Of a DNA stretch of 64,000 bases, positions 5,934 to 64,000 are shown in pieces. A model generated the notes under the pieces. It did no database searches, had not been told where the DNA came from, and was given only the letters and a program-made list of their open reading frames with translations. The stretch is from Betaproteobacteria bacterium (lineage in GTDB: Bacteria > Pseudomonadota > Gammaproteobacteria > Burkholderiales > Rhodocyclaceae), in NCBI GenBank assembly GCA_009777245.1, contig WRMF01000010.1:1-64000 (forward strand), written 5' to 3'. A program made the translations under genes and the position numbers. The first letter of the stretch is position 1; every line of letters begins with the position of its first letter.

Positions 5934-8900
5934 TTACCGCATCTGCCGCCAGGACAGGCGTCCGGCGCGACCGCTTGGGACAGTTCGTCCCGCAATATTG
6001 CTCAGGCGTTCATGTCTGCCGGAACCGTAGCGCGCTCCGTCAACCCTGTTGTAGGCAATCATGCTGGCGCCTTGGCTTCCTGAAGCTCCTGCGCTTTCCC
6101 TGATAAGAGACACGACGTACTTGCTGTCCCGACCTTCCTCGCCGCCGGATAACGCATTGTCGCGCCAGATATTGGATTCATTCTCGATTCTCCTGAATTG
6201 CGAGACCTTGATCCAGGTTCCTTGTTCGTAATTGAACTCGACGACTCCGCCCGCCACGTTGGAGCTACAGGCTTCGCCGCTAGGCAGGGTAACCGGCATG
6301 AAGAACTCTCTGGTTTGTGGAACAACCACCGTTCCCTGCGCGCGCGCCAGCGCAACCCCCATAGGATGGTCGGTCGTGCCAGTCAGGTCAATCACGTATC
6401 CGGCTTGGCTGGTATAGTCCACATTGGGGTTTCTGCTATCGCTCTTGTCCAGTTTCCATGCCTCCATAGCGCTCCAGTCTCCTTCATGCTCCTGGAAGTT
6501 ATCCTCGTCCGGGGAGTTCTCATCATACACCCGCACCTGCATCTCGCTGCGGCGGACAGGAAAGCCGCCGCTATTAACGGCTCTCCCGTTTGTGTCCAGA
6601 CGCACGCCGTAGATGGATTGCGTCTGCGTGTTTGTGACATCGCCATCTTCAAAGTACTTGCCCGTGCCCACGACGAGCTGATACCCCTGATCGCAATCTC
6701 TCATACTGCCGACGCACATTATGATGGGCGGCGCGGAGATGGATTGCGGGTTGTCGTCCGAATCCCGAGCCTCCAGCAACTTTTCCACACTATTATCGCG
6801 CAGATCGAATCTCCACAGATTTCCTTGCGCGTCCCCGGCGTAGGCGAGATCCATCAGGCCATTGCCATCCAAATCCAGAAGATAGGGAGATCCCAGGCCA
6901 TTACGATCACCGCCGCCCTGCACCGGGATGAAATCGAAACCGCTATAACCGGGGTTATTGCCTTGACCCCGCTCCAGCGGGACGATGAAGAGTCCGGCGC
7001 GCCCGGTTTCGCTGTTGTAGCCGTTGCCGAAGACTGCGGCAAAGCGGTGCCCGGAGCTTCCCGGCACCGCCACGATAACCGGGTCTATGTCTACCGGAGC
7101 GCCAAGGTCAGGATGGGTGAATTCCCAGAGCACATCGTTCGGCCCAATGGTGCTTGTTCCCACGTCTTCCACAACCAGCGCAAAGACCGCGCCGCGCTGT
7201 CCTGCGTATTGGTCAGAGGTCTTGCCGCGCCCGGTGGAGCCTACCAATACCGATTTCCATCCTCCATCCAGCCAGATGTCGCTCACCCACGGCGTTCCAT
7301 CCACATAGTACTGGTGCGCGTACCCCGGTTCGGTGAGCCGAACCAGTTGGTCCAGCAGAGCGCCCGGCACGTAAGCGAATAGCTCGCTTCCGGGTAGCAG
7401 TCCGGTTTGCGTATTGACATTCCCGCCCGCAAATGCGTGGAGCATACCGGCGTTAGCGGCCATGAAAACCAATTCCTGCCGCCCGTTGAGAGCGAAGTCG
7501 CGCATGCGATCCCGATACGCTCTAACCCGCGCCGCAGCGAGAAAAGAAGTCTCTGCGGGCGTGCAGGCTTCCGTTCTGGTAGAGGCGACGCCTCCCGGCT
7601 GGGGAACGAAGAGTCCGGCATTATCGCACTCATACCCGCCGTAGCCGTAGTCATTGTGCCTGTAATTGCCCAAAACGTAGGGCATGGGATTCACACTGTC
7701 GCCCAGCAAGGATCCCCTGTCGCGAAATGATCCGCCATTGGCAGCTTCCTTGTCCTGAATGCCTTTCACGTAATCGGCAACGTCATTGGGAACGGGGTTG
7801 TTGCCGCCGCCCGAGACGCTTTCAAAGGTAGCGCCCCGCCCGCCAGACCAGGTAATCACCCGTCGGCTGTTTGCGCCGCCCGGCGACCCTAACTGAGCGG
7901 TCAATCTTTCCGAGGCGCTCCACACGTTGCCTGCCAGCGGCATGCCGTAGTACCTCCTGCTTATGCAAAATCCGCGATCATACAACGCCTGTCCTATGCT
8001 CGCCTCGGAACAAACACTGTGGGCTGTCAGATCCCCCGTCCAGTCATCGGGACTGTAGCCGGAGATGTAGGCCAGGTCATTCTCTGAAACAGCCGAACTT
8101 TTGTTGCCTGCGCCTGCAAAGCTGCTCCGGCCATCCGTGCCGCCCATGGCGGAGAGCATCTCCCGCAAGGCGTCGGCAAATTCTTGCGCGTTCGTCGTGT
8201 CGAAAAAGTCGCCGCGCCCGGTAAGCCCTGCGTGGAACAGCTCGTCAACCTTGGTATTGTCGTTTGCGGACGCAGTCCAATGCCACGCTATCGGGGAGCC
8301 TGTCCATTCCCCTGTGGACCGATTCCAAACATTGGGGTTGGCAAGGTAAGATTTCAGCTCCGTGGCGGAAAGAGTGCCCTGCACGCCAAAACCGAGGGTG
8401 AAAGTCTGCATGTGCTGCCACCACGCCTCATTTTTTTTGTAGGTCGGCACCGGTTGCGACTTCCTCGCAAGATCGTTAAGCATGTCGGGGCCGGGCTTCA
8501 GGTCGTTCTTCCAGTAATACATGGCCCAGTCCCCCAAGAGGCCGCGCCATGTGGTGGCAAAAGGAGTTTGTGGCGTGTAACTCTGAAAGCCATCTATACC
8601 GGGGCCGGGCGTGCAGTCATGCGCTCCAACCTGACCGGCGGAACAACCGCTATTGGGAACCAGCTGATCGTAACCGTCTGTCATCAGGATCGTAAAGGAA
8701 CGGCGGCAAGTGGACATGTTTGCATTACCGCTCCCCGGATCGGTGGTTCTCATGGGGGGATAATCCATCCACGGACGATCAGTCCTGTAATACTCGCCCG
8801 CCGCTACCAGGGCAGATTTAAGAGGCGTATTGCTGGGAGCAGGCAGACCCAGCACCCAATCATAAAACCGCTTGACAAACCGTGTGTCCTGGCCGCCTGG

Positions 8901-10745
8901 ATATCCTTCCGGATTGTCCAGGAAAGGCAGCACCCCGATTCCGCCTCTTGGCGTGGTGCTGCCTGTCGCCGGGCGACCGGGTCCTAAATCAACAGGGGTA
9001 GCGCCTGGCGCAAAATTCAAGAAGAATCCTTGGCCAGTATTCCCAACAACTTCATCATTGCCGATTGTGCTGACGAAACGTCCATGCCCCATACTGGGCG
9101 AGTTGATGGTGTCGTAGCCCAGGCGGATGACCAGACTGCTCATTTCGGCGCTGGGCTTGGTGGTGTCGTCCCTGTCTACCAGAAACGCGAAAGCCTCGGT
9201 CATTCCCACCTTTGCCGCCATGTTGCGGCTCCTGTGGTAGGAATACCAGTTCATGAAGTTGCGGATCTCCTCCCCGACCGTGCGCGGCCTTGGCCCTCCC
9301 TCTATTTCCACCAGTTCGCCGTCATCGCCGACATAGTGCGTTACCAGATGCAGCCGGGACTGCTCAGGGCCGTACAGATTCGTGCAAACAACCCCGCCCC
9401 ACTCGTTTGTCTCCGGCCTGCAATTTGCGGTAGCCATGTCTTGAGCGGTGCCGGTTGTTCTTGTCGCCTGCCTGTTATTCCCGCGATACTCGAAGTAAGC
9501 AACCAATCTGTCAGGAGTGTCTACACTGGCATCGTAGTACCCCTTGCCGGTCGAATCCCCGATCACGTGCCGTCCCGCATTGCAGGTGAGGTGTTGAGGC
9601 ATGGTAGCCGCACTGGTAGCCGCCGCGCTGCTGGGATAGGGCATCCAGGCCAGCGGCGTCCCGGCAGTAGTGCTTCCAAAAGTGCTTGAGCCATCCGTCC
9701 GGAAGTTGTAGCCTCCCGTGCGAATACACCAGGGGCGGCCATTGGGCGAATTGTGCAAGGAGACGTTGGCATAAGCTGTTGCGATATTGCTTAAGATACC
9801 AGCAGTGCTGGTTACGCCAGCGCTCCGATATGTAAGCCGACATTGTCCATTCGGATTGTCTACGCCCGTTCCGGGCGCCTCTGCTCTGCCGTGATAATCC
9901 CTTGACTCCTCCACATCGGGAAACACCGCCGGACAGGCGCGGGAATACACAATAGACCGATTAGCGGCGGCAGTGCGGTTAGCATACGAAGCGTCGCCGT
10001 GGTTTCTGAAGTGATCGCCGGCAGTTACTGCCCGGAAAGCCCAGTACTCGTAGTTTTCCGGGTTATCTTCTGGTCTTCCGTTGGGGGCGCTGTAATTCGG
10101 GTTGTCCCGCATGGAGTGAAACCCGGGCACATAATCATAGTAGATGGCGGCGCCAAGTAAATTGGGGGTCGCATTGTCGTCGGCGACAAAAGGCACAGTA
10201 GGCGCTGACGTGATGCCGACGCCAGCAGTCGCAAAGTTTTCCACCGCAGTGCTGGGCGCCGTATTAGGCATTATCATAGTGTTAATGGGAACATTACTGC
10301 TCCTTGACGGATACCCGCTTCGGCGAACGCTGGGGAATGCAGACAAGGTATCGCTGTTCGGCATGCGTCTCAGTTGCCCGTTCCTCCACTCTATGGGCGG
10401 CTGGTAGATCACCTTCGGGTTGTAGTAAACCGTGTTCCAAGCCACAGAGTACATGTTATACGAGGTCAGAGAGCTGGTAAACGTACCCGTCGACAATGTG
10501 ATGCCGCTGGGTATGCTGGTGTACGACGAGACGGCGGAATCCGGCATGTTTACCCGCAACATCGAACTGGAATCGTCATGGATGTAGACGAGGTTGGGCG
10601 CGACCAGAGTGCCCGCAGTAAGCGGGCGCTGGGCGATTTCGAAATCGGGCGTGGCCTGCGGCAGCGCAAGGCCGGGGAACAGGGCTACTGCCAGCCCAAG
10701 AATCGTCTTTTGCGGCAAAGACATACGGCGGAAAAAGCGGTTCAT
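5934..10745 (-). CDS. PilY1/PilC-family type IV pilus tip protein, copy A
   Basis: A 1603-residue exported protein. The start at 10745 has an excellent ribosome binding site (GAAGGAGTTGTC) and is preferred over the track start 21 bp upstream. A signal peptide occupies about 1-31. A von Willebrand A-like N-terminal half starts with the MIDAS-type 'DDSSSM' at 57-62 and contains 'FTILMTDGYD'. The C-terminal half is the PilY1 beta-propeller, with a calcium-loop sequence 'DLDGNGLMD' followed by 'AGDAQGNLWRFDL' near residue 1288. PilY1/PilC proteins sit at the tip of type IV pili and act in adhesion, pilus extension and surface sensing. No minor pilin genes (pilVWX, pilE) flank it; the gene is a stand-alone unit with its own leader and terminator. 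Its ends are nearly identical to copy B while the interior diverges. Confidence 0.9.
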   Translation of the reverse strand: MNRFFRRMSLPQKTILGLAVALFPGLALPQATPDFEIAQRPLTAGTLVAPNLVYIHDDSSSMLRVNMPDSAVSSYTSIPSGITLSTGTFTSSLTSYNMYSVAWNTVYYNPKVIYQPPIEWRNGQLRRMPNSDTLSAFPSVRRSGYPSRSSNVPINTMIMPNTAPSTAVENFATAGVGITSAPTVPFVADDNATPNLLGAAIYYDYVPGFHSMRDNPNYSAPNGRPEDNPENYEYWAFRAVTAGDHFRNHGDASYANRTAAANRSIVYSRACPAVFPDVEESRDYHGRAEAPGTGVDNPNGQCRLTYRSAGVTSTAGILSNIATAYANVSLHNSPNGRPWCIRTGGYNFRTDGSSTFGSTTAGTPLAWMPYPSSAAATSAATMPQHLTCNAGRHVIGDSTGKGYYDASVDTPDRLVAYFEYRGNNRQATRTTGTAQDMATANCRPETNEWGGVVCTNLYGPEQSRLHLVTHYVGDDGELVEIEGGPRPRTVGEEIRNFMNWYSYHRSRNMAAKVGMTEAFAFLVDRDDTTKPSAEMSSLVIRLGYDTINSPSMGHGRFVSTIGNDEVVGNTGQGFFLNFAPGATPVDLGPGRPATGSTTPRGGIGVLPFLDNPEGYPGGQDTRFVKRFYDWVLGLPAPSNTPLKSALVAAGEYYRTDRPWMDYPPMRTTDPGSGNANMSTCRRSFTILMTDGYDQLVPNSGCSAGQVGAHDCTPGPGIDGFQSYTPQTPFATTWRGLLGDWAMYYWKNDLKPGPDMLNDLARKSQPVPTYKKNEAWWQHMQTFTLGFGVQGTLSATELKSYLANPNVWNRSTGEWTGSPIAWHWTASANDNTKVDELFHAGLTGRGDFFDTTNAQEFADALREMLSAMGGTDGRSSFAGAGNKSSAVSENDLAYISGYSPDDWTGDLTAHSVCSEASIGQALYDRGFCISRRYYGMPLAGNVWSASERLTAQLGSPGGANSRRVITWSGGRGATFESVSGGGNNPVPNDVADYVKGIQDKEAANGGSFRDRGSLLGDSVNPMPYVLGNYRHNDYGYGGYECDNAGLFVPQPGGVASTRTEACTPAETSFLAAARVRAYRDRMRDFALNGRQELVFMAANAGMLHAFAGGNVNTQTGLLPGSELFAYVPGALLDQLVRLTEPGYAHQYYVDGTPWVSDIWLDGGWKSVLVGSTGRGKTSDQYAGQRGAVFALVVEDVGTSTIGPNDVLWEFTHPDLGAPVDIDPVIVAVPGSSGHRFAAVFGNGYNSETGRAGLFIVPLERGQGNNPGYSGFDFIPVQGGGDRNGLGSPYLLDLDGNGLMDLAYAGDAQGNLWRFDLRDNSVEKLLEARDSDDNPQSISAPPIIMCVGSMRDCDQGYQLVVGTGKYFEDGDVTNTQTQSIYGVRLDTNGRAVNSGGFPVRRSEMQVRVYDENSPDEDNFQEHEGDWSAMEAWKLDKSDSRNPNVDYTSQAGYVIDLTGTTDHPMGVALARAQGTVVVPQTREFFMPVTLPSGEACSSNVAGGVVEFNYEQGTWIKVSQFRRIENESNIWRDNALSGGEEGRDSKYVVSLIRESAGASGSQGASMIAYNRVDGARYGSGRHERLSNIAGRTVPSGRAGRLSWRQMR

Positions 10746-11245
10746 GACAACTCCTTCATGCGCCATTTAACATGGCTTTCGTTACAAATCGCCCGCATAC
10801 GAACAGGCATATTGCATTGTAGGTATCATGAATCTGTTTTTGTTCGATTATCAGACGAGCGGTAGTTTTTGGATGGTGAACGGTTACCTGATCAGACGAA
10901 CGGTTGTTTTTGGATGATGAGCGGTTAATCAAATTGTAAAAATTTGGCAGATACAGCACGATAACTACATATGCCTTTGTAAACAAAGGGAAAACCATTT
11001 CAGGCCATTGAAATCTACATCCGGCAAACCCTAGCCATGCGCAAAGTCAGAAAAATCATATATTATCAAATACTTACACAGGTAACGCGAAAACCATGCA
11101 CACGTCTTTGCAACAAAATTTGAATACTTGGTCTGCATACGTATAGACAAAACACATTCCATGCCCTGCAAGTACGCTGTTTCTTGCGACAAAATTCTCA
11201 ACCATTCAATATATGACCGCGCGTTACCGGAATGTCAAACTCCTC
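10746..11245 (-). promoter_or_regulatory. Conserved leader/promoter region of pilY1-A
   Basis: About 500 bp upstream of pilY1-A align in inverted orientation with 27855-28312 upstream of pilY1-B. The ~100 bp nearest the start codon are almost identical. Copy A carries two tandem versions of a ~41-bp segment (around 10853-10935) where copy B has one. Each contains a box ACCGTTCGTC or ACCGCTCGTC on the minus strand (10895-10904 and 10854-10863). A small in-frame ORF ending 'KAMLNGA' just before the ribosome binding site is conserved in both loci but may be coincidental. Confidence 0.65.
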
Positions 11246-27854: not shown

Positions 27855-28312
27855 TTCTTGACATTCCGGTAACGGGCGGTCATATAGCGCATGGTTGGGA
27901 ATTTTGTCGCAAGAAATGGCGTATTTGCAGGGCATAGGGTGTGTTTTGCCTGCGCGTATGCTGTCCAAGTATACGGATCTGTTGCAAGGACAGGCGCGCG
28001 GGTTTTCGTTTTCTACCTATAAGTATTTGATAATACAGGGGTTTTTCTGATTTTGCGTGCGGCGCGGTTTTGTTGGACTGGGGTTTTCCATGTGTCTGAA
28101 ATGGTTTTTCCTTTGTTTACAAGGACATATGTGGTTATCGTGCTGTATCTGCCAAATTTTTACGATTCAGGTAACCGCTTATCATCCAAAAACTACCGTT
28201 CGTCTGATAATCGAACAAAAACAGATTCATGATACCTACAATGTAGTGTGCCTGTTCGTATGCGGGCGATTTGTAACGAAAGCCATGTTAAATGGCGCAT
28301 GAAGGAGTTGTC
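27855..28312 (+). promoter_or_regulatory. Conserved leader/promoter region of pilY1-B
   Basis: It aligns with the pilY1-A leader in inverted orientation from 'TTGACATTCCGGTAACG' at the far end to the start codon. It has one copy of the ~41-bp segment that is doubled in A, with a box ACCGTTCGTC at 28195-28204, 109 bp before the ATG. No coding sequence is credible except a short conserved frame ending just before the ribosome binding site. Confidence 0.65.
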
Positions 28313-31300
28313 ATGAACCGCTTTTTCCGCCGTATGTCTTTGCCGCAAAAGACGATTCTTGGGCTGGCAGTAGCCCTGTTCCCCGGCCTTGCGCTGCCGC
28401 AGGCCACGCCCGATTTCGAAATCGCCCAACGCCCGATAACAGCGGGGGTAGTTGTCGCGCCCAACCTCGTCTACATTCATGACGACTCCAGTTCGATGTC
28501 TTGGACGTTCATGCCGGATGCTTCCACGGGTTCGCATGGCTCCATCATCACGGTGAACACGAGCCTTACGTTTGGAAACTCCCAAGCCTCGCATAACATG
28601 TATTCCTCGACCTGGAACACGGTTTTCTACGATCCGCAGATGATCTACCAGCCGCCCTTGATGTGGCGGGATCATAAGATTGTTCGCATGCCGAACAGCG
28701 ATACCCTGTCTACCTTCCCGCAAGTTCGCAGAAACGGGTATCCCACGCGGTCTTATTCTTCGACAACACTTGCTCAGAATCAGACGACTGCCGCGCTTGC
28801 CGCTCTTAATATAGGGAACACCACAAACGATACCTTGAACGTAGGCATACAGTCAGTGCAAGACACCTTTACGTCCGGCAACATCGGTTCTGGCACTTTG
28901 GAGCCTGATAATCAATTGCGCTCTGCCATCTACTATGCCTATGTGCCCGGGTTCCATTCCATGCGAGATAACCCGGATTTCGATCCCGCAACGCTGGAAT
29001 CAGATCAGCGAAACTACGAGCACTGGGCTTTCCGGCAAGCGACTGCCGGCGCGTTCTTCAGAACCAATAACAGCAATGCGACTCTTTTGAACCGCACTGC
29101 CGACCCTAACCGGAGAATCGTGGTATCCCGCGCCTGTCCGCAGGTGTTTTCCGATGTGCCGGAGTCAAGGGAATATTATGGCCATGCGCATGGAACCTGC
29201 CGGGTCACGTACCGGAGCGAGGGCGTTACCAGCACTACCGGCGCGGTCAGCAATTTTACCGCAAGTCTGCCCTCGACCAATTCGTACCATGGTCGCCCCT
29301 GGTGCATCCGCTCGAACGGTTTCAACTACCGGACGGATGGCAACAACAACTTTGGCTGCGCTAGCACGTCCGTAGGCCAGGCAACATCCATGACAGGAGC
29401 GGTATCGTGTAGTAGTCATGGCAGTATGACCCCGCTGGCCTGGCAGCCTTATGGCAATGATGCCGCCGCCACCACGACGGGGACATCCTCGAACGTTCCT
29501 TTGCACCTCACCTGCCATGCAGGAAGGCATGTGATCGGGGACTCGACCGGCAAGGGGTATTACAACTCTGCTGTAGACCTTGATGACAACTATGTCTCTT
29601 ACTTCGAGTATTCAGGGCAAATCACGGGAGCGACTTCAGCCACGGGTAGTCCTGTCACCGATGCTGCGGCAAATTGCAATGCGGCTACGGGCAACCCCGG
29701 CGTTTGCAGAAACCTGTACGGCCCCGAGCAGTCCCCGCTGTATCTGGTTACGCACTATATCGGCGATGACGGCGAATTGATTGAATTGGATCAGCCTACT
29801 CGGCGCACGGTCAGGCAGGAAATCCGCAACTTCATGAACTGGTACTCCTACTACCGGAACCGCAACATGGCGGCAAAGGTGGGCATGGCCGAGGCTTTCG
29901 CTTTTCTGGTAGACCGGGAAGACACCACCAAGCCCAGCGCCGCCATGAACAATCTGGTAATCCGCCTGGGTTACGACACCATCAACTCATCCAGTATGGG
30001 ACAAGTGGCTCTCGCGAATGCGGATACCGGAAACGAGCAGACTATGACCAACACGTTTGTCAATTTCAGACCGGGGACGAATCCCAGCACCAGAATGGGG
30101 CCGCATCTCTCCAACAGGGGCGGAATCGGGGTGGTGCCTTTCCTCGATTTTCCGGCTGGCGCGCAAAATCCTGACGGAACGCCCAGCCCTTACAGCGAGC
30201 AACAGTTTGTCAAGCGCTTTTACGATTGGGTGCTTGGCATGCCCGCCCCCGCCAATACGCAGCTGACCACTTCCATGATAGCGGCGGGCGAGTACTACAG
30301 GACTGATCGTCCGTGGATGGATTATCCCCCTGTGAGAACTACCGACGCGGGTAGCGGCAATGCAAACACGTCCACCTGCCGCCGCTCGTTCACGATTCTT
30401 ATGACGGACGGCTACAATTCGCAGCAGAACCGTTCAGGCTGCACGTCCGGCGCGGTCGGCGCGCATAGCTGCACGCCCGGCGCGGAAGTCCAGTGGCGTG
30501 ACGGCACAGTGCGCCCGACCTACACGCCAAGGGCGCCTTTTAACACCAACATGAGCGGCACCTTGGGGGATTGGGCCTTGTACTACTGGAAGACCGACTT
30601 GAGACCCGGCATGACTGACGAAATTGTGCCGACGTCGCGCCATCCGATCTACAGAAAAAACGAGGCGTTCTGGCAGCACATGCAGACTTTCACCCTTGGT
30701 TTTGGCGTGCAGGGCACTCTTTCCGCCACAGAATTGAAATCTCACCTTGCCAATCCCAATGTTTGGGATCCGGATACAGGCGCATGGAGCGGCTCCCCGA
30801 TAGCGTGGAATTTTACGACGACCGGCCAACCCAACAAGGTTGACGAGTTGTTCCACGCCGGCATCGCCGGGCGCGGCGACTTTTTCGACACGACGAACGC
30901 CAGGGAGTTCGCAGACGCCTTGCGGGAGATGCTGATGTCCATGACCGGCGAAGGAGGCGGCTCCAAGAACTTCGCAGGCTCGGGCGGGCAGGGGGCGGAA
31001 GAATGGTATGTGAACGTCACTACCAATTACGAACCCGAAAACTGGACCGGCGAGGTTTATGCTCATGGTGTGTGCTCTCCGCCGTTCATCGGTTGGGAAC
31101 TGGTCGAAGGCCCCGGCAGCACCTCAAGGTGCTCCAGCAAGCTCTACGGCGCGCCGCTGAAGCAGCCGGTATGGTCAGCCTCGGAGAGGTTGAACGATCA
31201 GTATTTTTACCTGAACAACAGCAGCTGGAACGCTCGCAAGGTGTATACCTGGGGCAACGACTCCGGCGAGTCGTTTCACCAAAGCCACATCCCTGCTTCC

Positions 31301-33217
31301 TCCTTGGGTACGAATCCCTTCAACAATGTTAATCAGCACCAGAAAGCCGTGTACGACTATTTGCTGGGCGACCGGCAAAATGAAGTCAGGAGGGGCGGGA
31401 TGTTCCGCGACCGGGATTCATTGCTGGCCGACATCATCAATCCCATGCCCTACCTTCTGGGCTACTACCAGCACAATGACTACGGCTACGGCTCGCTGGA
31501 GTGCGATTCGGGCGGCAACCTGATTCAGTTGCCGGCGGGCATCGTAAGCGACAGAACCGCCGCCTGCGAACCCGAGGAGGCGACTTTCCTCACGGCTGCG
31601 GAAATCAACAGTTATCGGCAGCGCGTCATCGGCTTCAGGGATAACGGCAGACAGGCGGTTGTTTTTGCGGCCGCGAACGGCGGCATGCTGCATGCCTTTG
31701 TCGGCGGGTTGGAACCTACGGGAAATGGTCTGCAGCCCGGAGAAGAGTTGTTCGCCTATGTGCCGGCGTCGCTGCGTAGCCAACTGGTACGGCTCACCGA
31801 GCCGGGATACGCGCACCAGTATTACGTGGATGGAGCGCCGTGGGTGGGCGATATCCTCCTGAACGGCAACTGGACCTCGGTATTGGTAGGCTCCACCGGG
31901 CGCGGCAAGACCTCGGATGACCGCATCCAGCGCGGCAGCTTCTTCGCGCTGAATGTGGAGAATCCGGAAAACTTCAATCAAGGCCACGTGCTCTGGGAAT
32001 TCACCCATGACGATCTCGGCGCTCCGGTGGATATAGACCCTGTTATCGTCGCAGTACCCCAGGGCGGAAACAACCGCAACTTTGCGGCGGTCTTCGGCAA
32101 CGGTTACAACAGCGCGAACGGGCGCGCCGGACTCTTCGTCGTCCCGCTGGATCAGGGCGGTCATAACCGCGCCCTGTTCTACCCTGTTCCCGAGAACGGT
32201 CTTCCCAATGGTTTAGGCTCTCCCTACCTTCTGGATCTCACCAGCAATGGCATGATGGATCTTGCCTATGCCGGGGATGCGCAAGGAAACATGTGGAAGT
32301 TCGACCTGAGAACCGGCGGCGTGGAGCTGTTGCTTGCGGCCAGGGACGATAGAGGCGTTCCGCAACCCATCGTCGCGCCGCCCAGCGTTGTTTGCGTTGA
32401 GCATGCGCGCGCCGGCAACAGGACAGACTGCCTGGATGGGTACCAGCTTGTCGCGGGTACCGGCAAGTACTTTGAGGATACGGATTTCACCAGTCCGCAG
32501 ACGCAGTCCATCTACGGCGTGCGCCTGAACCGGGCCGGCGGGGCGATAAACCCGACAGGAGGCGTGGCGACCGGCTACGTTGCCCACCGCGACAACATGC
32601 AGGTACGGGTGTATGACGGCAATCATCCTAGAGATGACGATTTCTATCGGGAGACCACAACAGACCTGACATTCACCGCGCAGGCATGGAAGCTGGATCA
32701 GGGTACGGACATTGACAAAAACCCCGATGTGGATTACCCCAATCAAACCGGGTACGTGATTGACCTGACCGGCACGCAGAGCAATCCCATGGGAATTGCG
32801 CTGATGCGCGCGCAAGGCACGGTGCTTGTCCCCAGGACAAGGGATTTCCTGATGCCCATCACCTTGCCGTCCAGCGAGACCTGCACCGGCGACCAGGGCG
32901 GCGGATTCGCCGAGTTCAACTACGAGCAAGGCACCTGGATCAGAAGCTCGATGTTCAGGAGAATCGAGCATGGATCCAATATCTGGATTCATCAGGGCGC
33001 CGCCGGATCCGAGGTCAATCGGGACAGCAAGTACGTTCTTGGCACTGTCATGGAAGTCAGGCCAGACGGCTCAAGGGGGCTTGTGTTCAACACGGTGGGC
33101 GGCGCGCGTTATGGCTCCGGCAGACATGAGCGTCAGCAGGTGGTCAATATACCTGACCCTCACCAGATTTTTACTCCCACCCGCGCCGGACGCCAGTCCT
33201 GGCGGCAGATTCGGTAA
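28313..33217 (+). CDS. PilY1/PilC-family type IV pilus tip protein, copy B
   Basis: 1634 residues. Signal peptide and the first ~41 residues are identical to copy A, as is most of the DNA there; GAAGGAGTTGTC sets the start at 28313. A MIDAS-like 'DDSSSM' and 'FTILMTDGYN' mark the von Willebrand A-like half. The PilY1 propeller contains 'YAGDAQGNMWKFDL'. The calcium-loop equivalent reads 'DLTSNGMMD', with Thr where copy A has the second Asp, so calcium binding may be weaker. Some blocks are near-identical to A ('NFMNWYSY', 'TFTLGFGVQGTLSATELKS', 'AHQYYVDG') while intervening stretches diverge with indels. It stands alone with its own terminator. Confidence 0.9.
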   Translation: MNRFFRRMSLPQKTILGLAVALFPGLALPQATPDFEIAQRPITAGVVVAPNLVYIHDDSSSMSWTFMPDASTGSHGSIITVNTSLTFGNSQASHNMYSSTWNTVFYDPQMIYQPPLMWRDHKIVRMPNSDTLSTFPQVRRNGYPTRSYSSTTLAQNQTTAALAALNIGNTTNDTLNVGIQSVQDTFTSGNIGSGTLEPDNQLRSAIYYAYVPGFHSMRDNPDFDPATLESDQRNYEHWAFRQATAGAFFRTNNSNATLLNRTADPNRRIVVSRACPQVFSDVPESREYYGHAHGTCRVTYRSEGVTSTTGAVSNFTASLPSTNSYHGRPWCIRSNGFNYRTDGNNNFGCASTSVGQATSMTGAVSCSSHGSMTPLAWQPYGNDAAATTTGTSSNVPLHLTCHAGRHVIGDSTGKGYYNSAVDLDDNYVSYFEYSGQITGATSATGSPVTDAAANCNAATGNPGVCRNLYGPEQSPLYLVTHYIGDDGELIELDQPTRRTVRQEIRNFMNWYSYYRNRNMAAKVGMAEAFAFLVDREDTTKPSAAMNNLVIRLGYDTINSSSMGQVALANADTGNEQTMTNTFVNFRPGTNPSTRMGPHLSNRGGIGVVPFLDFPAGAQNPDGTPSPYSEQQFVKRFYDWVLGMPAPANTQLTTSMIAAGEYYRTDRPWMDYPPVRTTDAGSGNANTSTCRRSFTILMTDGYNSQQNRSGCTSGAVGAHSCTPGAEVQWRDGTVRPTYTPRAPFNTNMSGTLGDWALYYWKTDLRPGMTDEIVPTSRHPIYRKNEAFWQHMQTFTLGFGVQGTLSATELKSHLANPNVWDPDTGAWSGSPIAWNFTTTGQPNKVDELFHAGIAGRGDFFDTTNAREFADALREMLMSMTGEGGGSKNFAGSGGQGAEEWYVNVTTNYEPENWTGEVYAHGVCSPPFIGWELVEGPGSTSRCSSKLYGAPLKQPVWSASERLNDQYFYLNNSSWNARKVYTWGNDSGESFHQSHIPASSLGTNPFNNVNQHQKAVYDYLLGDRQNEVRRGGMFRDRDSLLADIINPMPYLLGYYQHNDYGYGSLECDSGGNLIQLPAGIVSDRTAACEPEEATFLTAAEINSYRQRVIGFRDNGRQAVVFAAANGGMLHAFVGGLEPTGNGLQPGEELFAYVPASLRSQLVRLTEPGYAHQYYVDGAPWVGDILLNGNWTSVLVGSTGRGKTSDDRIQRGSFFALNVENPENFNQGHVLWEFTHDDLGAPVDIDPVIVAVPQGGNNRNFAAVFGNGYNSANGRAGLFVVPLDQGGHNRALFYPVPENGLPNGLGSPYLLDLTSNGMMDLAYAGDAQGNMWKFDLRTGGVELLLAARDDRGVPQPIVAPPSVVCVEHARAGNRTDCLDGYQLVAGTGKYFEDTDFTSPQTQSIYGVRLNRAGGAINPTGGVATGYVAHRDNMQVRVYDGNHPRDDDFYRETTTDLTFTAQAWKLDQGTDIDKNPDVDYPNQTGYVIDLTGTQSNPMGIALMRAQGTVLVPRTRDFLMPITLPSSETCTGDQGGGFAEFNYEQGTWIRSSMFRRIEHGSNIWIHQGAAGSEVNRDSKYVLGTVMEVRPDGSRGLVFNTVGGARYGSGRHERQQVVNIPDPHQIFTPTRAGRQSWRQIR

Positions 33218-35461: not shown

Positions 35462-36664
35462 ATGCTGAAAAGAATCAATGTTTCCCACGTCAAGATCGGG
35501 ATGTATATCCATGAATTCTGCGGTTCATGGATCACGCATCCGTTCTGGCGCACCCAGTTTCTCCTGTCCAATCCTGAAGACCTGCGCCGCATCCGGGAAA
35601 GCTCGTTGCGGGAACTCTGGATTGACACGGAGCGCGGGCTGGATGTCGACTCGGGCAAGGCCAACGAGGAAGCCGCAAAAAGCATTCCGCCCCCGCCCAC
35701 CTCTGTACGACCGGAGCACAAACCGGCCACGATGCGCGCCGAGATCGAGCGCGCCGCGAAAATCTGCTCCAAGGCGCGGGAGTCCATTACCTCCATGTTT
35801 CAGGAAGCCCGCATGGGACACGCCATTGAACCGGAACAGGCAATACCGCTGGTCAACGAAATTTCAGATTCCGTCATGCGCAATACGGACGCGCTCCTTA
35901 GCCTCGCCCGGCTGAAAACCGCCGACAACTACACTTACATGCACTCCGTCGCCGTTTGCGCCCTGATGATCGCGCTGGCGCGGCAAATGCAATTTTCCGA
36001 AGAAGATGTGCGTAATGCCGGATTGGGCGGGATGATTCATGATATAGGCAAAATGAAGATTCCGCTGGATATACTGAACAAAAACGGCAAGCTAACCGAC
36101 GAAGAATTCACACTCATGAAGCGCCATCCCGGCATGGGCTATGACATCCTGAAAGAAAGCGCCTCGATTCCCGATAGTGTTCTGGAAGTTTGTCACGCCC
36201 ACCATGAAAAATTGGACGGAAGCGGCTACCCGCGCAGTTTGCAAGGCGACACGATCAGCCTTTTCGCCCGCATGGGCGCAATCTGCGACGTTTATGACGC
36301 CATTACCTCGCACCGCCCCTACAAGGAAGGCTGGGATCCGGCAGAATCCCTGCACAAAATGTCGAGTTGGAAAGGCCACCTCGACATGTACCTGTTTCGC
36401 GCCTTCGTGAAAAGCCTGGGCATCTACCCTGTCGGCTCACTGGTTCGGCTAAATTCAGGGCGAATCGGCGTTGTAATCGAGCAGAACGAATCGCTGCTCG
36501 CTCCCAAAATCAAGGTCTTTTTCTCGACGCGCAGTAACTGCCGCATCGCGCCGGAAATCGTAAACCTCGCCCGCGCGGGCTGCCCGGAAAATATCATTGC
36601 CCGCGAAGAACCGGAAAACTGGAATTTCACCGACCTGGAAGACCTCTGGGCCATTCCTGCGTAA
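35462..36664 (+). CDS. HD-GYP phosphodiesterase with DUF3391 N-terminus
   Basis: 400 residues, soluble. The N-terminal DUF3391 region starts 'RINVSHVKIGMYIHE', followed by 'LRELWIDTERGLDVD'. The HD-GYP domain is canonical, with 'GMIHDIGKMKIP' near 191 and 'HAHHEKLDGSGYPRSL' near 246-258, so cyclic di-GMP hydrolysis is likely. No obvious Shine-Dalgarno is seen before the ATG ('TTTATAATGGACACATG'). A TATAAT at 35449 lies unusually close to the start, so translation may be leaderless or nearly so. It is convergent with guaA, with 32 bp between the stops. Confidence 0.9.
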   Translation: MLKRINVSHVKIGMYIHEFCGSWITHPFWRTQFLLSNPEDLRRIRESSLRELWIDTERGLDVDSGKANEEAAKSIPPPPTSVRPEHKPATMRAEIERAAKICSKARESITSMFQEARMGHAIEPEQAIPLVNEISDSVMRNTDALLSLARLKTADNYTYMHSVAVCALMIALARQMQFSEEDVRNAGLGGMIHDIGKMKIPLDILNKNGKLTDEEFTLMKRHPGMGYDILKESASIPDSVLEVCHAHHEKLDGSGYPRSLQGDTISLFARMGAICDVYDAITSHRPYKEGWDPAESLHKMSSWKGHLDMYLFRAFVKSLGIYPVGSLVRLNSGRIGVVIEQNESLLAPKIKVFFSTRSNCRIAPEIVNLARAGCPENIIAREEPENWNFTDLEDLWAIPA

Positions 36665-56945: not shown

Positions 56946-59900
56946 TCATCGCGCCGATGTTCCCACGCCGTCCGTCACCGTCAACATGCCTTCACCGCTG
57001 GTCAAGCCATAAACATCAGGGCGGTACATGTCCTCGGCGTAGAGAGGCGGGATGACGAACCTGCCCGGCGTGACGACGCGGGCGCGATAAAACAGGCTTA
57101 TCCTGCCTTGCAGGCGGGCGGCGACGACAAAGCGATCATCCCGAAACTCAACATGCTGAATACGCTGGTCGCGCATCGCATAAGCCGGATTGACGTTATC
57201 AATCATGACGCTTGCCAGACCCTCGCCTTGGGCAATGTTGAGGTTCTCAATCTCAAGACCCGCCGGAATGCGGTCAATGACCATGCCGTTGTTGATCCAG
57301 CTACGCGGCTCGACATTTATACGCGCGATTACCGATTCGCCCACGCGCAGGGAAAGGGAGCGGTTGCCAAGCGGTCTTCCGTCGGCATCGAACCAATGGC
57401 GGCTCAAGACGATAACATCGTCGCGGGCGGGCGGCATCCGCGCCGGATTGCCGCTAAGGCTAAGATGCAAGTGGAGCGGTTCATTGTGCGTGTTCCTGAT
57501 GTGGATGCCGCCTTGCAGCTCCGCTGTCGTAAGCGACCGGATCAGGCTGCCGACGCCCTTTAGCGTCTCCGCCCTGCCCCTGCCATCTGTGATTTCCGCC
57601 GTCCATTCGGCTCCGCCCTCACGTGAGCCAAGGAAATTACGACCGAGCAGGAACAGCGCGAGCTTCTCCTGAGTGCTGGTGTAGAGGGAGAGGGTCGTGT
57701 TCAATTCAGCGTTGGCGATTGCGACCAGATTGTCCTGCCCCTCAACCTTCACCTTATGGCGATCGAGCAGGACATAAGACAACGCCGCGTCGCGCAGCGG
57801 GCTACCATAGTCGCCCCACCAGTAGCCAGAATCACGCCCCTTTCTGACGCCTTCCTGGAAAGCCGTCCGGGCGCGGGTTTCATCGCCCATAAGTTTCAGA
57901 GCCAGACCGAGATGAATCAAGGCCAAGCCGGAATGCGCCTGGTCGCGTACCTCGAACATCTGACGCAGGGTAGATAACGGAGCCTTGGCCTCGCGCGCCA
58001 GCACATAAGCGCCGTAAGCAAGCACTCCAAAACGGCCTGCGCCAGCGTAGCGATAATCCTGCCAGCCACTCTCGTTGTAAGCGACCTTGCCCTTTGGCAG
58101 ACCGGCTACGCCTTCCTGCAAGTATTTGAGCAGAAATTCCTGGGTCTTCTGCTGCATTGTTTCCGGCACAGCAAAGCCCTGTTCGCGCGCGTCAAGCAGG
58201 AAATTACCAACGTAGGCCGAGAGCCAGTACTGGTATTCGGAGACATTTCCCCACATGCTGAAGCCGCCGTTCGGAGCCTGCATCGCGCCCAGTCTGGCAA
58301 TGGATTTTTCCAGCATGTTAGCCCGCTCATCACGACTGTAGGGCTTGAGGCCAAACAACCTGGCTCCGTCCTCGTCAATCAGGACATGGGGATAAGAGGT
58401 GCTGGTCGTCTGCTCGGCGCAGCCGTAGGGATATTGAAGCAAACCCTGAATGGCGCTACGCACGTCAATCGGAGCCTTGTCGGAAATCATCACATGGGAT
58501 TGCGCGCTGCTGTAGATAAAGCCGCTCAAAGCGGGCTCCCGGATATTGAGCGTTTCGCCCGGCGCGACCGTCAGCATTCTGACTAACTGCTTTTGCGGCG
58601 TCGCGGCCTGGACTTGCAGGCCAAAGCTGCGCTCCAGCTTGAGGCCGGAGCTACTGGCAACGTTTACCCGAACCTCGGTCAGACCGAAGGCTTGACCGGC
58701 TTCAATCTGAAAGCGCAGGGTTCGTTTTTCGTCCGCCTTCAATACCAGTTCCCGCCCGGCGTTGTTGATCTTCAGACCGTCGTCGTTCTCGACGCGGACT
58801 TTAAGCGTTTGCGCGACGCCGGTCATGTCATGCAGGTCAAGCGCGATAGTGGCCTGATCGCCTACGGTAAGGAAGCGCGGCGTCAACAATTCCGCCACCA
58901 GCGGCGCGGCGACCACGGTTTCAGTCTCGGCATTGCCGAAGCGATCAGCGGCGGCGGCAACCGCCATCAGACGCAGAGCGCCGTTGAAATCAGGAACATC
59001 AAGGGCGATTTCGGCCTCGCCTTTGGCGTCAAGCTGAACCGGGCCTGAAAACAGATCGACCAGAAGAACCTTCCTGGGCAGGCTCTTGGTCGCTTGCGGC
59101 GCGGAGTCGCCGCCAAACCTCAGCCTGCCCTTGCGACCGGACATCTTCTCGATCAGGCGGCCATAAACATCGTACTGGTCAACCCCGTAGCGCAACCGTC
59201 CGAAGAAATGGGTGAAAGGATCGGGCGTCGCAAAGCGGGTGATGTTGAGGATGCCGACATCAACGGCGGAGAGCGTGACGATTGCCGTTTGATTGCCCAG
59301 ATCGGGAACCTTGACCTTCACCTTGAGGGGAGTCTCAGGCAGCATCTTCTGCGGAGCTTCAAGGCTGACCGCCAGCTTGCGATCAGCGCGCTCAAGCGGC
59401 AGATGCGTGAGACCAAGCGCCCGCGCGGGAGTCACCTTCTCGCCGGAACTTCCCGGTCGCAGCACAATCACCGAAACATATAGATCATGACGCTGCCAGT
59501 CTTTATCCACCGGAATTTCGACGGTCGCGCCGTCGAGCGGAACCGGGATTCGCTTCACCCACAGGGTACGGTCGGCCTCGACGGTGATCAGCGCCTCGCC
59601 GGCGTGCGGCGGGCTGATAGTCAGTTTGGCAGTATCGCCGTCGCGGTAGGCCGGTTTGTCGAATTTCAGAGCTACCCGGTCGGGACGAACGCCCTGGCTT
59701 TCGTCGCCTCTGGCGCTCCAGCCCGCGTAGAAGCGGAATTTGGCTGTCTGCTGGGTTTCGGGGTCAAGAATTTCCAGGCGATAGCGCCCGTAATTGACCG
59801 GCATCCCCACCTTGCCGCGTCCGTCTTCGGGAATGCTGACGCTGGCAGTGCCTACCAGTTCGTCGGTTTCGGTAAAGCCAGAGTGCCAGCCGCGCTGGTC

Positions 59901-62126
59901 ATCGAAACGCCAGTAATAGTCGCGGTTTTCGCGGAACAGGCGCACCGGCAGGTCATCGCCCGCGCTCAATTTGCCGTCGGCATCGGCGCGCACGACCTCG
60001 AACTGGGCAATGCTGCCTTCACGCGCATAATCGCCGGTAAACAGGGGGCGAATGCCGACCAGAGCGGGCGCAGGCCAGATTACCCGTTCAAAATTACGCA
60101 CCACCGGCCTGCCGCCGCTTTCGAGCAGGCTCAACGTGGCGCGCGCGGTGGTGGGCGATCGCTTGCCGCTGGCAGGCTCCAGATTGATGTTCAGGGTCAA
60201 TTCCCCGTTTTCGTCAAGATTGGCCGACCCAAGCTCGACTCTATGGCGCTGGCTGTCTTCGTTGGAGTCTCCGAATTCAAAGCCGGGCAGTTGCCTTGCC
60301 AGCGGGTTCTTCTGCCGCTCGAAGACGGCAACGCCAAGCAATTCGTTTCCGGCTGCCGGAGCGCCGTAGAGATAGCTACCCTTGACGTTGATCCGCAAGG
60401 TTTCATCGGGCGAAACGACAGCCTGCGGACTATCCAGATCGAGCTTCATTCGTTCCGGCAGAAATTCCTCAACGCCGAAACGGAAACTGGCGGTAGCCAG
60501 CTTGTCAGCCGGATCGGAGCGCAGTTCCAGTCGCCATGAGCCAGTCGGAGCGTCGACCGGCAATTCGATACGCTGCCGGTAATAACCGGGCATCCTGGTA
60601 TCGGGTTGCCAGCTTGCGGTGAACTGGTTCTTGCCGTCCGAGCGTTTGAGAACGGCCTGGATTGGTTGAGCCGGAACCGGACGCCCGTCGGCGTCACGCG
60701 CCAGCACCGAAAGCTCGAAACTCTCGCCGGGCCGGTAAAGATCGCGCCCTGCATAGGGGAACAGGCGCACCGTCTGTCCGGGCAGGCCGGTTATCTCGTA
60801 TTCGGAAAGATCGAGCGCCGGTTCCTTCAATGTAATCATGGACAGTTGCCGACCGTGACGGGCGACGACGACCTTGGCCGCCGCCGGTCGTTCGGCGAAG
60901 TTGGCGCGTCCGTCGCCGTCGGTTTTACCGCTGGCGACGACTCTGGCGTTCTCGTCAAGCCAGGTCACCTCGACGCCTGATACCGCCTTGCCGCCGGTAA
61001 GCGAGCTTACCCAGACATCAGCGCCCTTGGCGAACAGGCGGGCGGATAGCCCCAGGTCGCTTACGTAGAAGTAGGTAACCTGATATTCATAGCGGAAGCG
61101 GTTGGGCTGGCTCATCACCGCGATGTAAATGCCTGGATCAGACAGTTCCTTGATGTCTTCCACCGGCAGGAAAGTGACATTGCGCTTGTTGGCCTGCTGC
61201 TCGGTCAGGAAGCGACCGGCGAAAACGCTTTCGGTCAGTTTGTGCAGATTATCCAGCGTCCAGTTGTTGATCGCGCCCTTGAGATCGGTGGCGCGCCAGT
61301 CGTAATGATAACCTTCGTCATCATCGGCCTCACGCTGGACGCGCGGGCCGCTGATTACCCGGTCGAGAAAGCGCGGTAATTGATCGGGCTTTACACGCAG
61401 GAATTGAACATCAACTTCAGGCACATTGACGGTGACAACCGGCAGGCCGCCGTTCTGCCGGGTCGGCAATACCATGCCGCGGCTGGCGAAGTAATAGGTC
61501 GGCGCGACGACGGGAGTGACAACCGCATAGCGGCTTTCCTCGCTGCTTTCCTCGCTCAGCGTTTTACCGGCGGCTGATGGCAGACCGGCGGCGACGCGGA
61601 CGACGTAGCGGGTGTGCGGCTTGATGTGCGGGAAGTACAGCAGTCGCGGATTATCGCCTACGACCCATGCGCCCTTGACCAGTACGCCGCCGTCAATGGC
61701 GGTGTCTTCGGGGGCGCTGCTGGCCTGCGGCACGGTGTTGTCGGAGCGACCGCTGTAGTAGTCCTCGTCCTCATCGTCCGCTTGGCTGCGCGGCCTGGGA
61801 TCATTGGGGCGAGCGGGCATCTCGAAGACCTGGATCAGATCGTCGTAAGTCCTGCCTCTATCCAGAGGATGCGTAAAACTCAAGGCCAGAGCAGGCGAGC
61901 CGTCAAATTCACGGTTGCCGAAATCGGCAATCTGGAAAGGCCCGACTGCGCTTCCGATGTCATCCGGCTGGATAACCCGAAAAGACGGGGCGGCGCTTAC
62001 GGTCGCGTCGTCCTGCTGTAATGATCTGGCGATATAAAGACCCGATGCCGCAACAATGGCGACGGCGGCGACGATGAACAGCAACATGACTGTTCCAAAA
62101 CCCTGACGTGAAAACGAGCGCGACAT
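56946..62126 (-). CDS. Bacterial alpha-2-macroglobulin family protein
   Basis: 1726 residues. These are protease-trapping proteins of the periplasm, homologous to complement C3. The N-terminus has one hydrophobic helix ('VMLLFIVAAVAIVAASGLYIA') as a membrane anchor and no lipobox, unlike E. coli YfhM. A string of macroglobulin beta-domains follows. A bait-like region and an A2M domain are recognisable ('LVDLFSGPVQLDAKGEAEIA'). The thioester motif 'YPYGCAEQTTS' near 1235 is intact, so covalent capture should work. GAGGAGAAGTC fixes the start. Such genes are usually paired with the peptidoglycan synthase pbpC; here no pbpC is in the window on either side. Confidence 0.92.
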   Translation of the reverse strand: MSRSFSRQGFGTVMLLFIVAAVAIVAASGLYIARSLQQDDATVSAAPSFRVIQPDDIGSAVGPFQIADFGNREFDGSPALALSFTHPLDRGRTYDDLIQVFEMPARPNDPRPRSQADDEDEDYYSGRSDNTVPQASSAPEDTAIDGGVLVKGAWVVGDNPRLLYFPHIKPHTRYVVRVAAGLPSAAGKTLSEESSEESRYAVVTPVVAPTYYFASRGMVLPTRQNGGLPVVTVNVPEVDVQFLRVKPDQLPRFLDRVISGPRVQREADDDEGYHYDWRATDLKGAINNWTLDNLHKLTESVFAGRFLTEQQANKRNVTFLPVEDIKELSDPGIYIAVMSQPNRFRYEYQVTYFYVSDLGLSARLFAKGADVWVSSLTGGKAVSGVEVTWLDENARVVASGKTDGDGRANFAERPAAAKVVVARHGRQLSMITLKEPALDLSEYEITGLPGQTVRLFPYAGRDLYRPGESFELSVLARDADGRPVPAQPIQAVLKRSDGKNQFTASWQPDTRMPGYYRQRIELPVDAPTGSWRLELRSDPADKLATASFRFGVEEFLPERMKLDLDSPQAVVSPDETLRINVKGSYLYGAPAAGNELLGVAVFERQKNPLARQLPGFEFGDSNEDSQRHRVELGSANLDENGELTLNINLEPASGKRSPTTARATLSLLESGGRPVVRNFERVIWPAPALVGIRPLFTGDYAREGSIAQFEVVRADADGKLSAGDDLPVRLFRENRDYYWRFDDQRGWHSGFTETDELVGTASVSIPEDGRGKVGMPVNYGRYRLEILDPETQQTAKFRFYAGWSARGDESQGVRPDRVALKFDKPAYRDGDTAKLTISPPHAGEALITVEADRTLWVKRIPVPLDGATVEIPVDKDWQRHDLYVSVIVLRPGSSGEKVTPARALGLTHLPLERADRKLAVSLEAPQKMLPETPLKVKVKVPDLGNQTAIVTLSAVDVGILNITRFATPDPFTHFFGRLRYGVDQYDVYGRLIEKMSGRKGRLRFGGDSAPQATKSLPRKVLLVDLFSGPVQLDAKGEAEIALDVPDFNGALRLMAVAAAADRFGNAETETVVAAPLVAELLTPRFLTVGDQATIALDLHDMTGVAQTLKVRVENDDGLKINNAGRELVLKADEKRTLRFQIEAGQAFGLTEVRVNVASSSGLKLERSFGLQVQAATPQKQLVRMLTVAPGETLNIREPALSGFIYSSAQSHVMISDKAPIDVRSAIQGLLQYPYGCAEQTTSTSYPHVLIDEDGARLFGLKPYSRDERANMLEKSIARLGAMQAPNGGFSMWGNVSEYQYWLSAYVGNFLLDAREQGFAVPETMQQKTQEFLLKYLQEGVAGLPKGKVAYNESGWQDYRYAGAGRFGVLAYGAYVLAREAKAPLSTLRQMFEVRDQAHSGLALIHLGLALKLMGDETRARTAFQEGVRKGRDSGYWWGDYGSPLRDAALSYVLLDRHKVKVEGQDNLVAIANAELNTTLSLYTSTQEKLALFLLGRNFLGSREGGAEWTAEITDGRGRAETLKGVGSLIRSLTTAELQGGIHIRNTHNEPLHLHLSLSGNPARMPPARDDVIVLSRHWFDADGRPLGNRSLSLRVGESVIARINVEPRSWINNGMVIDRIPAGLEIENLNIAQGEGLASVMIDNVNPAYAMRDQRIQHVEFRDDRFVVAARLQGRISLFYRARVVTPGRFVIPPLYAEDMYRPDVYGLTSGEGMLTVTDGVGTSAR

Positions 62127-62819
62127 TGACTTCTCCTCAAGGCGGACGCCGACGGGCGGCGGGCAAAAAAGTGAAACGCGGATTATCACACAGATGTGGC
62201 TGTCCTGTGATGTTTCATCAAGTCAGAGGAGTGAGCCTGCGAACCAGGCAGGACGGGGTTTTCCGCCCACAGAAGCAGACGAAAACGCGAAACTTTCTTG
62301 TGCCTTTTGCCGATGGATTTCCCTGATCGTGAACACGTATCGAGCGCAATCCTGGAGCGTTTTTGATTTAATCCTGTACAGCAGATATAGATTTTTGCTG
62401 GATTCCCGCCTACGCGCCACACCCTTTTATAAAGGGGGCTAACCCCAATGCCGCATTACCGCCCAACGCCGCGTCGTCGCCGTAGGGGCAGACCCATGTG
62501 TCTGCCCATAGCGCGAACACGCCCCAACATCGGGCGAACACGCAGGTTAGCCCCTACAACACCCCTTGTCCGCTTGCGGGCTTGCAAGCCCCCGTCCCTA
62601 CGGGGGAACTCCTTTGGCTTCGCCGCGAGAGTAAATGACCGTTTGTCGTGTCAAACCAACCGTTTGTCAGTTTTTTCAAGGGAAAACAGTTTTGTGGACT
62701 AGCATTATCTATAACTTAAGTTATATTACTTAAGTTATAGTACTTTAGTTATAGTCGGCCTGCTGTGGTCGTCTATGGCTTTGTTGAACACAGGCGCTTC
62801 GGCGCATGGAGGAATTGTC
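62127..62819. other. Intergenic region rich in repeats, upstream of pilY1-C
   Basis: No gene. It contains a fragment of the double-hairpin element (62329-62356, GTGAACACGTATCGAGCGCA), a half dRS3-like sequence near 62398, an AAAGGGGGCTAACCCCAATG block near 62433 and a GTAGGGGCAGACCCATGTGT ... AGCCCCTAC block at 62481-62560. The pilY1-C control region follows. Confidence 0.6.
62638..62755 (+). promoter_or_regulatory. Candidate control region of pilY1-C
   Basis: Two boxes ACCGTTTGTC (62638-62647, 62659-62668) match those ahead of pilY1-A and -B. They are followed by three tandem 14-bp units ACTTAAGTTATATT / ACTTAAGTTATAGT / ACTTTAGTTATAGT (62714-62755). The first two units overlap a perfect 16-bp palindrome TATAACTTAAGTTATA (62710-62725). 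TATAGT-type -10 sequences occur within the array. Confidence 0.55.
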
Positions 62820-64000
62820 ATGAACTATCTTTTTTCCCATAGAGGAGCTTCCCGCAGAAAGCTGATCCTCTCACTGGCAGTCGCTCTTTTCCCCGGTCTG
62901 GCGTTATCCGAGTTTGATATTGCCCAGCGTCCGCTGGTGGCGGACAAGCCGATGGATCCAAATCTTGTGTATATCCACGACGATTCCGGGTCCATGGCGG
63001 ATTCGTTTCTGCCGGATGGCGCGATCAGCGGCGGCGTCATGCGCGCTACGCCTTTTCTGAACGGGGCTTACTACAACCCCGATATCACCTACCAGCCGCC
63101 CGTCCGCCATGACGGAACCCGTCTTGTGCGTTTGAGGAACAGCGACCGGATCACCGATTTTCCCCGCGTCTGCGGAAATGGTTATGCGGAGGCAGTCGCA
63201 AAAGGCGGCGCATGTTCAAGCACAGCCAACTTGACCAGCACGGCGACCAGCACAGCGGTCATTCAGGGAACCGGAGCGGCTCCCACCGGCATGGCTGCTT
63301 ACTGGGACTACGTGCCGGGCTACAATTCCATGCGGGATAACGTAAATTACGACCCGGACGCAAAGCCGGAAGACAGTATGCACAACTATGAATACTGGTC
63401 TTTTCGCGCTCTGCCGACCGGCAATAACGCCCTCTTTCGGCAAAACCGGGCTAACTCTGGCTATTACGCCCGCAGCCAGGCGGCAAACCAGACACTGGTC
63501 AGGAACCGCGCCTGTCCCACGATTTTCCGGGAAATCGCGGACGGCAGGGAATACTATGCCGGTCTGCCAAGCTCCAGCGGCGCATACTCCGGAACGTTGC
63601 AAAACCCGGTCTTTCAGTTGGCCGGACAAGGCCCCATCCGCAAGGGATTCGCAGGCTTTGAAGCGGCGAATGGCATCGCGCACGCGCACTGCCGCGACAG
63701 TTATCGGGTCTTTGATGTGGACGAAGCGATGGTCGGGCAGGGTTATGGCGGCACAACCGCATATCATACCGGAACTCCCTTGCCTGCCGGAGCCGCCTTC
63801 AACCTGGCGCATCCGCGAAGCAGGTTCTGCACGAATACCAGTCGCTATGCCTCCATCAGCAATTATGTTTTGCGACCCTGGGAGGAGTTTTCCACTGCCA
63901 CAACCGGCACAGGGAGCGCCGTTACCTGTTACGCGGGCAGGCATGCGATTGGCGACACCACCGGACACGGTTTCTGGAGCGCGACCAAAGACCTGCCGGA
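62820..64000 (+). CDS. PilY1/PilC-family protein, copy C (5' part, runs off window)
   Basis: The frame is open from the ATG at 62820 to the window end, 393 codons, and is missing from the ORF track because it has no stop. GGAGGAATTGTC precedes the start, close to the A/B sequence. The signal peptide shares 'LAVALFPGLAL' with A and B, followed by 'EFDIAQRPL' and 'NLVYIHDDSGSM' with a textbook MIDAS start (DxSGS). Family landmarks continue: 'YNPDITYQPPV', 'YVPGYNSMRDN', 'NYEYWSFRA', 'NRACPTIFREI', 'AGRHAIGDTTG'. It is clearly paralogous but much more distant than A and B are from each other. Confidence 0.88.
   Translation, partial: MNYLFSHRGASRRKLILSLAVALFPGLALSEFDIAQRPLVADKPMDPNLVYIHDDSGSMADSFLPDGAISGGVMRATPFLNGAYYNPDITYQPPVRHDGTRLVRLRNSDRITDFPRVCGNGYAEAVAKGGACSSTANLTSTATSTAVIQGTGAAPTGMAAYWDYVPGYNSMRDNVNYDPDAKPEDSMHNYEYWSFRALPTGNNALFRQNRANSGYYARSQAANQTLVRNRACPTIFREIADGREYYAGLPSSSGAYSGTLQNPVFQLAGQGPIRKGFAGFEAANGIAHAHCRDSYRVFDVDEAMVGQGYGGTTAYHTGTPLPAGAAFNLAHPRSRFCTNTSRYASISNYVLRPWEEFSTATTGTGSAVTCYAGRHAIGDTTGHGFWSATKDLP

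Follow-up and report, generated by a model that had tools for sequence, protein, structure and literature searches.

The window analysed here, a stretch of 64,000 nucleotides, comprises positions 1-64000 of contig C10 (83,478 b) and contains pilY1 copies A and B and the 5' part of copy C (Table 1). Exactly three PF05567 genes are present in the genome, a MAG of 2.15 Mb in 43 contigs whose 93% completeness means that another pilY1 gene or minor-pilin operon may have been missed; all three lie on contig C10 inside 62 kb, distant from the contig ends. PF05567, the PilY1 propeller, matched every copy far above the cut-off (1.1e-31 in A, 5.3e-30 in B and 2.1e-35 in C), and copy C matched the P. aeruginosa PilY1 structure 3hx6 at 1.6e-46. 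A preceding sequence-only reading had proposed three giant pilY1 genes, with the reservation that copy C might be a truncated pseudogene or, at full length, lack the propeller. All three genes are real, intact and provided with propellers. Copy C starts with an ATG at 62820, immediately preceded by an SD-like GGAGG, and its frame, open to the window edge, is free of internal stops and finishes on the contig at 67661 (1613 aa). The C-terminus ...RAGRQSWRQLR is common to the three proteins, and a hydrophobic leader, MIDAS-like DDSGS/DDSSS and TDG motifs are visible in the N-terminal sequence. The propeller calcium loop (D-x-D/N-x-D/N-G-x-x-D) reads DLDGNGLMD in A and DTDRNGAAD in C, and is degenerate in B (DLTSNGMMD). 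The proteins are larger than that of P. aeruginosa (~1600 vs. ~1160 aa).

Table 1. Coordinates of the pilY1 copies and of their upstream elements on contig C10.
Feature	Position	Strand	Details
pilY1 copy A	5934..10745	-	1603 aa from ATG 10745-10743; 1610 aa from in-frame upstream ATG; propeller ~6573-7487
pilY1 copy B	28313..33217	+	1634 aa; propeller ~31631-32323
pilY1 copy C	62820..67661 on contig (5' part 62820..64000 in window)	+	1613 aa; propeller contig 66123-66740
AlgR-type half-sites, copy A	10854..10925	-	Four, steps 21, 20, 21 bp; two tandem pairs
Tandem AlgR-type box, copy B	28174..28204	+	
Tandem AlgR-type box, copy C	62638..62668	+	ACCGTTTGTC-N11-ACCGTTTGTC
AT-rich palindromic iteron, copy C	62710..62753	+	ACTTAAGTTATA-like, three copies, between box and start codon
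A/B identical leader	28250..28429 (-63 to +116 of B); A counterpart ~10629-10808 (-)	+	180 bp, 100% identical

A 1747-aa ORF at 56946-62189 (-), directly before and divergent from copy C, does not encode a PilY1 but a bacterial alpha-2-macroglobulin. Dispersed repeats of 100-400 bp, 84-97% identical, were observed on contig C10 (81199-81603/83074-83478, window 469-575/contig 79996-80102 and window 42938-43062/56778-56899).

No minor pilins were found close to any of the three pilY1 copies. The genome has a single PilX_N gene, located on contig C8 in the only minor-pilin operon found, which is ordered FimU-like (GspH), PilV, PilW, PilX and PilE/ComP-like. PilX is directly followed by PilE, leaving no space for pilY1 between them, and the earlier proposal that no pilY1 gene lies inside a minor-pilin operon holds for the whole assembly. 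Six T2SSE ATPase genes, including PilB/PilT-type genes, are present, making a type IV pilus machine likely. Other prepilin-like genes also occur in the genome. The absence of adjoining minor pilins does not affect membership of the PilY1 family, since linkage is usual but not obligatory and solitary pilY1 genes exist elsewhere (PMC13190605). The three copies are best regarded as true pilus-tip proteins of the PilY1 (PilC) type, whose genes left the minor-pilin operon and multiplied.

Each of the three pilY1 copies is preceded by ACCGYTYRYC units repeated in tandem and in the same orientation every 20-21 bp. There are two such half-sites at B and at C; the four at A result from a tandem duplication of ~41 bp relative to B. 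The same tandem pair stands at -94 of fimU on contig C8. A search of the 2.15 Mb genome with ACCGYTYRYC-N10-12-ACCGYTYRYC gave 6 matches, solely at the A, B, C and fimU promoters, and the reversed-control pattern gave 0 matches in the same sequence; since A, B and C are where the pattern was originally spotted, independent statistics come only from fimU and the relatives. The sequence-only reading had assigned each copy its own control region. Such a region is present at every copy, but the three are not independent of one another, as they have the AlgR-type tandem box of fimU.

The boxes agree with the AlgR sites published for P. aeruginosa (CCGTTCGTC, CCGTTTGTC and CCGTTCATC; PMC4064291), being CCGTTCGTC-like, and share the layout of LytTR regulators, which consists of two direct repeats ~12 bp apart (PMC4064291). 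The boxes described here are regular 21-bp direct repeats, a spacing that according to a review of AlgR the P. aeruginosa sites need not keep (PMC4064291). A PWM was built solely from the published P. aeruginosa sites (PMC4064291). Of the 19 solo pilY1 genes in the genus, 15 have upstream tandem sites (p<=0.006 by dinucleotide shuffles), a convincing box being absent at the other 4, and tandem sites lie near -92 in 5 of 7 fimU operons split from pilY1 (p<=0.01); the G017 fimU gene also has a tandem site after start correction. When periods from 10 to 40 were scanned, the mean best score was 16.3 at 21 and 2-7 at all others, and the reverse-complement and reversed controls were flat. The 21-bp device is also found upstream of linked fimU-pilY1 operons in relatives.

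Copy C has a further element, a ACTTAAGTTATA-like iteron with 5 matches on both strands of the window vs. 0.03 expected, which was not found at A or B; it is possibly an extra operator. Directly 3' of copy B there are two consecutive HD-GYP type genes (33680-36664, +), the second also with DUF3391, and in G014 (L242) an HD-GYP2 homologue lies ~9 kb from a solo pilY1. The two genes beside B had raised the idea of control by a c-di-GMP riboswitch, which was dropped, as Rfam at the gathering threshold revealed no riboswitch or leader RNA and one tRNA only.

The genome encodes one LytTR-domain protein, a receiver-LytTR response regulator adjoining hemC, hemD and hemX, and one His_kinase-family (FimS-type) kinase, adjoining argH. 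A single LytTR gene is also the rule in the genus (20 of 21 genomes). The Pseudomonas order is argH-fimS-algR-hemC-hemD; both neighbourhoods resemble it, and differ from P. aeruginosa in that the argH-fimS (L202) and algR-hemCDX (L027) halves are on separate contigs. A Pseudomonas-like AlgZR locus thus seems to be split in two here. The regulator matched no curated AlgR model in NCBIfam or PDB searches, and the name AlgR rests on synteny, on its being the sole LytTR protein and on the sites. AlgR would bind the boxes at the four promoters.

Identity is ~62% between copies A and B and 42-43% between C and either of them, in agreement with the earlier description of C as a third, distant paralogue. 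A and B constitute an inverted duplication that spans also ~470 bp upstream and ~370 bp downstream. Their dN/dS ranges from 0.30 to 0.57 along the gene, indicating purifying selection on both; no positive selection between them was seen (dN/dS < 0.6). The 180-bp identical block, a result that requires the short-read assembly to have spanned an identical repeat, comprises the proximal promoter, the SD, the signal peptide and the first mature codons. It lies in a mosaic, within ~330 bp at ~97% identity flanked by sequence at roughly 70-75%. In G018, which has the closest orthologue, the leader shows no more than 77% identity across its 5' coding part and aligns poorly upstream. Because of this divergence, long-term constraint on the leader was rejected as the cause of the identity, which is best explained by local gene conversion; the identical block would be the conversion tract.

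The relationships among PilY1 proteins were analysed with a propeller tree of 49 proteins. Seventeen giant solo pilY1 genes from seven genomes (G000, G004, G007, G010, G014, G017 and G018; the tree leaves out one more G017 copy because of its short length) formed one clade with 100/100 support. A and B were sisters, and C grouped with two G007 copies with moderate support, by which C is a separate line, older than the recent A/B duplication. A fimU operon without pilY1 was found in each of the seven genomes. Together with the single clade, this indicates that pilY1 left the operon and multiplied lineage-wide. The local expansion of tip adhesins that had been suggested is therefore correct as an expansion, but not as a local one; only the A/B pair is recent. 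Solo genes of this kind are put at 2 to ~6 per genome; members of the clade range from one or two per genome up to at least four, and G014 reaches ~5-6 copies if C84 and a box at a contig end are included. G004 (C175), G010 (C3 and C25) and G014 (C84) also have more distantly related pilY1 genes near which no minor pilins were detected, indicating that the solo state arose more than once. Two of the G007 solo genes (C35:84001-100000, L165) are in direct tandem ~200 bp apart, and are sisters in the tree.

Other members of the genus retain fimU-pilV-W-X-pilY1-pilE, at times as several operons per genome. Among 80 named PilY1 loci, 69 have at least one minor pilin adjoining (a few of them only some minor pilins), and the 11 without minor pilins are all from four close relatives. 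Thirty-seven genes of contig C10 were sought beside the solo pilY1 genes of the relatives, in the stretches fetched, and none was found. A conserved solo pilY1 locus was rejected for lack of common neighbours, and the solo genes are dispersed, as none of the neighbours of A, B or C is near those of the relatives. The fimU operon adjoins dps in G000, G007, G017 and G018 (purL-dps in three of them) and guaB in G004 and G014. The close relatives are MAGs named Zoogloeaceae bacterium (Cf509_bin62, Mcx344_bin48, Rs511_bin19 and others) and Betaproteobacteria bacterium MS502-89. From the sample names of these relatives, they and the bacterium analysed are probably termite-gut bacteria. A termite-specific Rhodocyclaceae clade with significant termite cophylogeny has been reported (PMC10281810), and it may correspond to the genus analysed here.

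We consider it probable that AlgR drives one shared minor-pilin set together with alternative PilY1 tips. FimS would phosphorylate AlgR, and phosphorylated AlgR would bind the tandem boxes of 21-bp period at the four promoters, turning on the single FimU-PilV-W-X-E set along with every pilY1 gene. Each pilus would be primed on the common minor pilins with one PilY1, giving rise to pili with differing N-terminal adhesive heads, and the PilY1 tips would be in competition for this common priming complex. The number of boxes and the added operators (four half-sites at A, the AT iteron at C) would set the share of each tip. New pilY1 copies would arise by duplication of the whole unit, promoter and leader included, and the A/B leaders would be homogenised through gene conversion as the heads diverge. 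Alternative tips on one common minor-pilin set is the best mechanism that we infer from these data, and co-assembly with that set, differing ligands and competition between tips are its presumed parts.

The N-terminal halves were compared in 18 aligned solo proteins. The segment from the MIDAS-like motif to the EEIRNFxNWY helix varies by ~500 aa in length, and identity per 25 residues is 0.17-0.4 in this insert vs. 0.45-0.75 in the vWA-like core and propeller. Two G007 copies (L166 and L167) have no DxSxS, DDSGS being replaced by EQTGS/QQTGS, which suggests that these heads lost metal binding. Pfam assigned no family and no vWA match to the N-terminal halves of six copies. A low-confidence model of C residues 28-862 (pLDDT 59, pTM 0.68) gave only non-significant Foldseek matches to vWA, SpaC and integrin I-domains. 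The hypervariability fits variable adhesive heads on a common base, whose ligands would differ, and is compatible with the interchangeable specificities that the sequence-only reading had suggested. It also bears on the possibility that the copies are tips of equal function, retained through drift or for gene dosage, and that their N-terminal differences have no adhesive effect. The promoter device common to A, B and C, the recent origin of the A/B pair and its homogenised leader would suit such redundancy, but the pair would then be expected to be alike in the body too and not just in the leader, the insert is far more variable than the rest, and C and A/B have long been maintained as separate lines, making this explanation unlikely.

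Alternative tips on a common set have also to be compared with the situation in myxobacteria, where, as here, a genome has several PilY1 proteins (up to six), some of them solitary and on one contig, with variable N-termini (PMC13190605, PMC9109919, PMC7541494). In M. xanthus, unlike here, each of the three pilY1 genes is linked to minor pilins of its own, and their regulation by HsfBA is divergent; here there is one minor-pilin set alone, and its operator is common to all pilY1 copies. If each PilY1 served a separate type of pilus or stage of life and relied on different minor pilins or routes of secretion, the individual M. xanthus clusters (PMC13190605) would be a precedent, and the other prepilin-like genes and the six T2SSE ATPase genes could provide the components. 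The single PilX/PilV/PilW set, with a box common to it and to all three pilY1 genes, renders this improbable. Least probable is that the boxes are targets of a different regulator, or a repeat that merely travelled with the duplications, and imply no co-regulation: the A and B boxes were copied together and the genome has many dispersed repeats, but the C and fimU boxes lie within otherwise unrelated DNA, the device recurs at the relatives' fimU and linked fimU-pilY1 operons, the published AlgR sites that it matches played no part in the choice of genes, and only one LytTR protein is available.

The AlgR-driven shared set resembles the FimS(AlgZ)-AlgR system of P. aeruginosa, which likewise combines a propeller PilY1 with a fimU operon bearing two upstream AlgR-type sites. 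There FimS-AlgR activates fimU-pilVWXY1Y2E, and PilY1 and the minor pilins feed back on FimS-AlgR control (PMC8787478, PMC5979040). By contrast, pilY1 is not part of the operon here and exists as three copies, every one of them preceded by a box. Paralogous tips are also known from Neisseria and Kingella (PilC1/PilC2) and Xylella (PilY1.1-1.3), where they differ in adhesion or calcium behaviour (PMC13190605). In Neisseria, PilC1/PilC2 switching is by poly-G phase variation, of which no sign was seen here; a common LytTR box is present instead. The figure of one or two pilY1 genes per genome assumed in the sequence-only reading falls short of the known range: there are three in Xylella and in Myxococcus and six in some myxobacteria (up to six in Archangium), and solitary pilY1 genes have been described (PMC13190605). 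The idea of pilus tips accessorised with different modules has also been stated (PMC9109919). Solo pilY1, multicopy pilY1 and AlgR control of fimU are thus already known separately, and it is their combination that is new. Among the open-licence papers searched, we found no account of a lineage whose pilY1 genes have moved out of the operon and multiplied while retaining the operator of the operon on each copy.

PilY1 has usually been studied within the minor-pilin operon, which makes the adhesive head hard to separate from its assembly partners. In this genome they are naturally separated, with one minor-pilin set and several dispersed heads, and a regulon of four promoters is small enough for complete testing. 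Tentatively, PilY1 may be a plug-in tip in a lineage of termite-gut symbionts: one minor-pilin operon would serve from 2 to ~6 dispersed giant heads, each new copy bringing an AlgR operator along, with gene conversion keeping the leaders alike, and mixed or selectable tips might be available for gut surfaces or flagellate partners. The system would allow one to ask whether the minor pilins take any PilY1, what sets the mixture of tips in each cell, and whether the number and type of heads follow the termite host.
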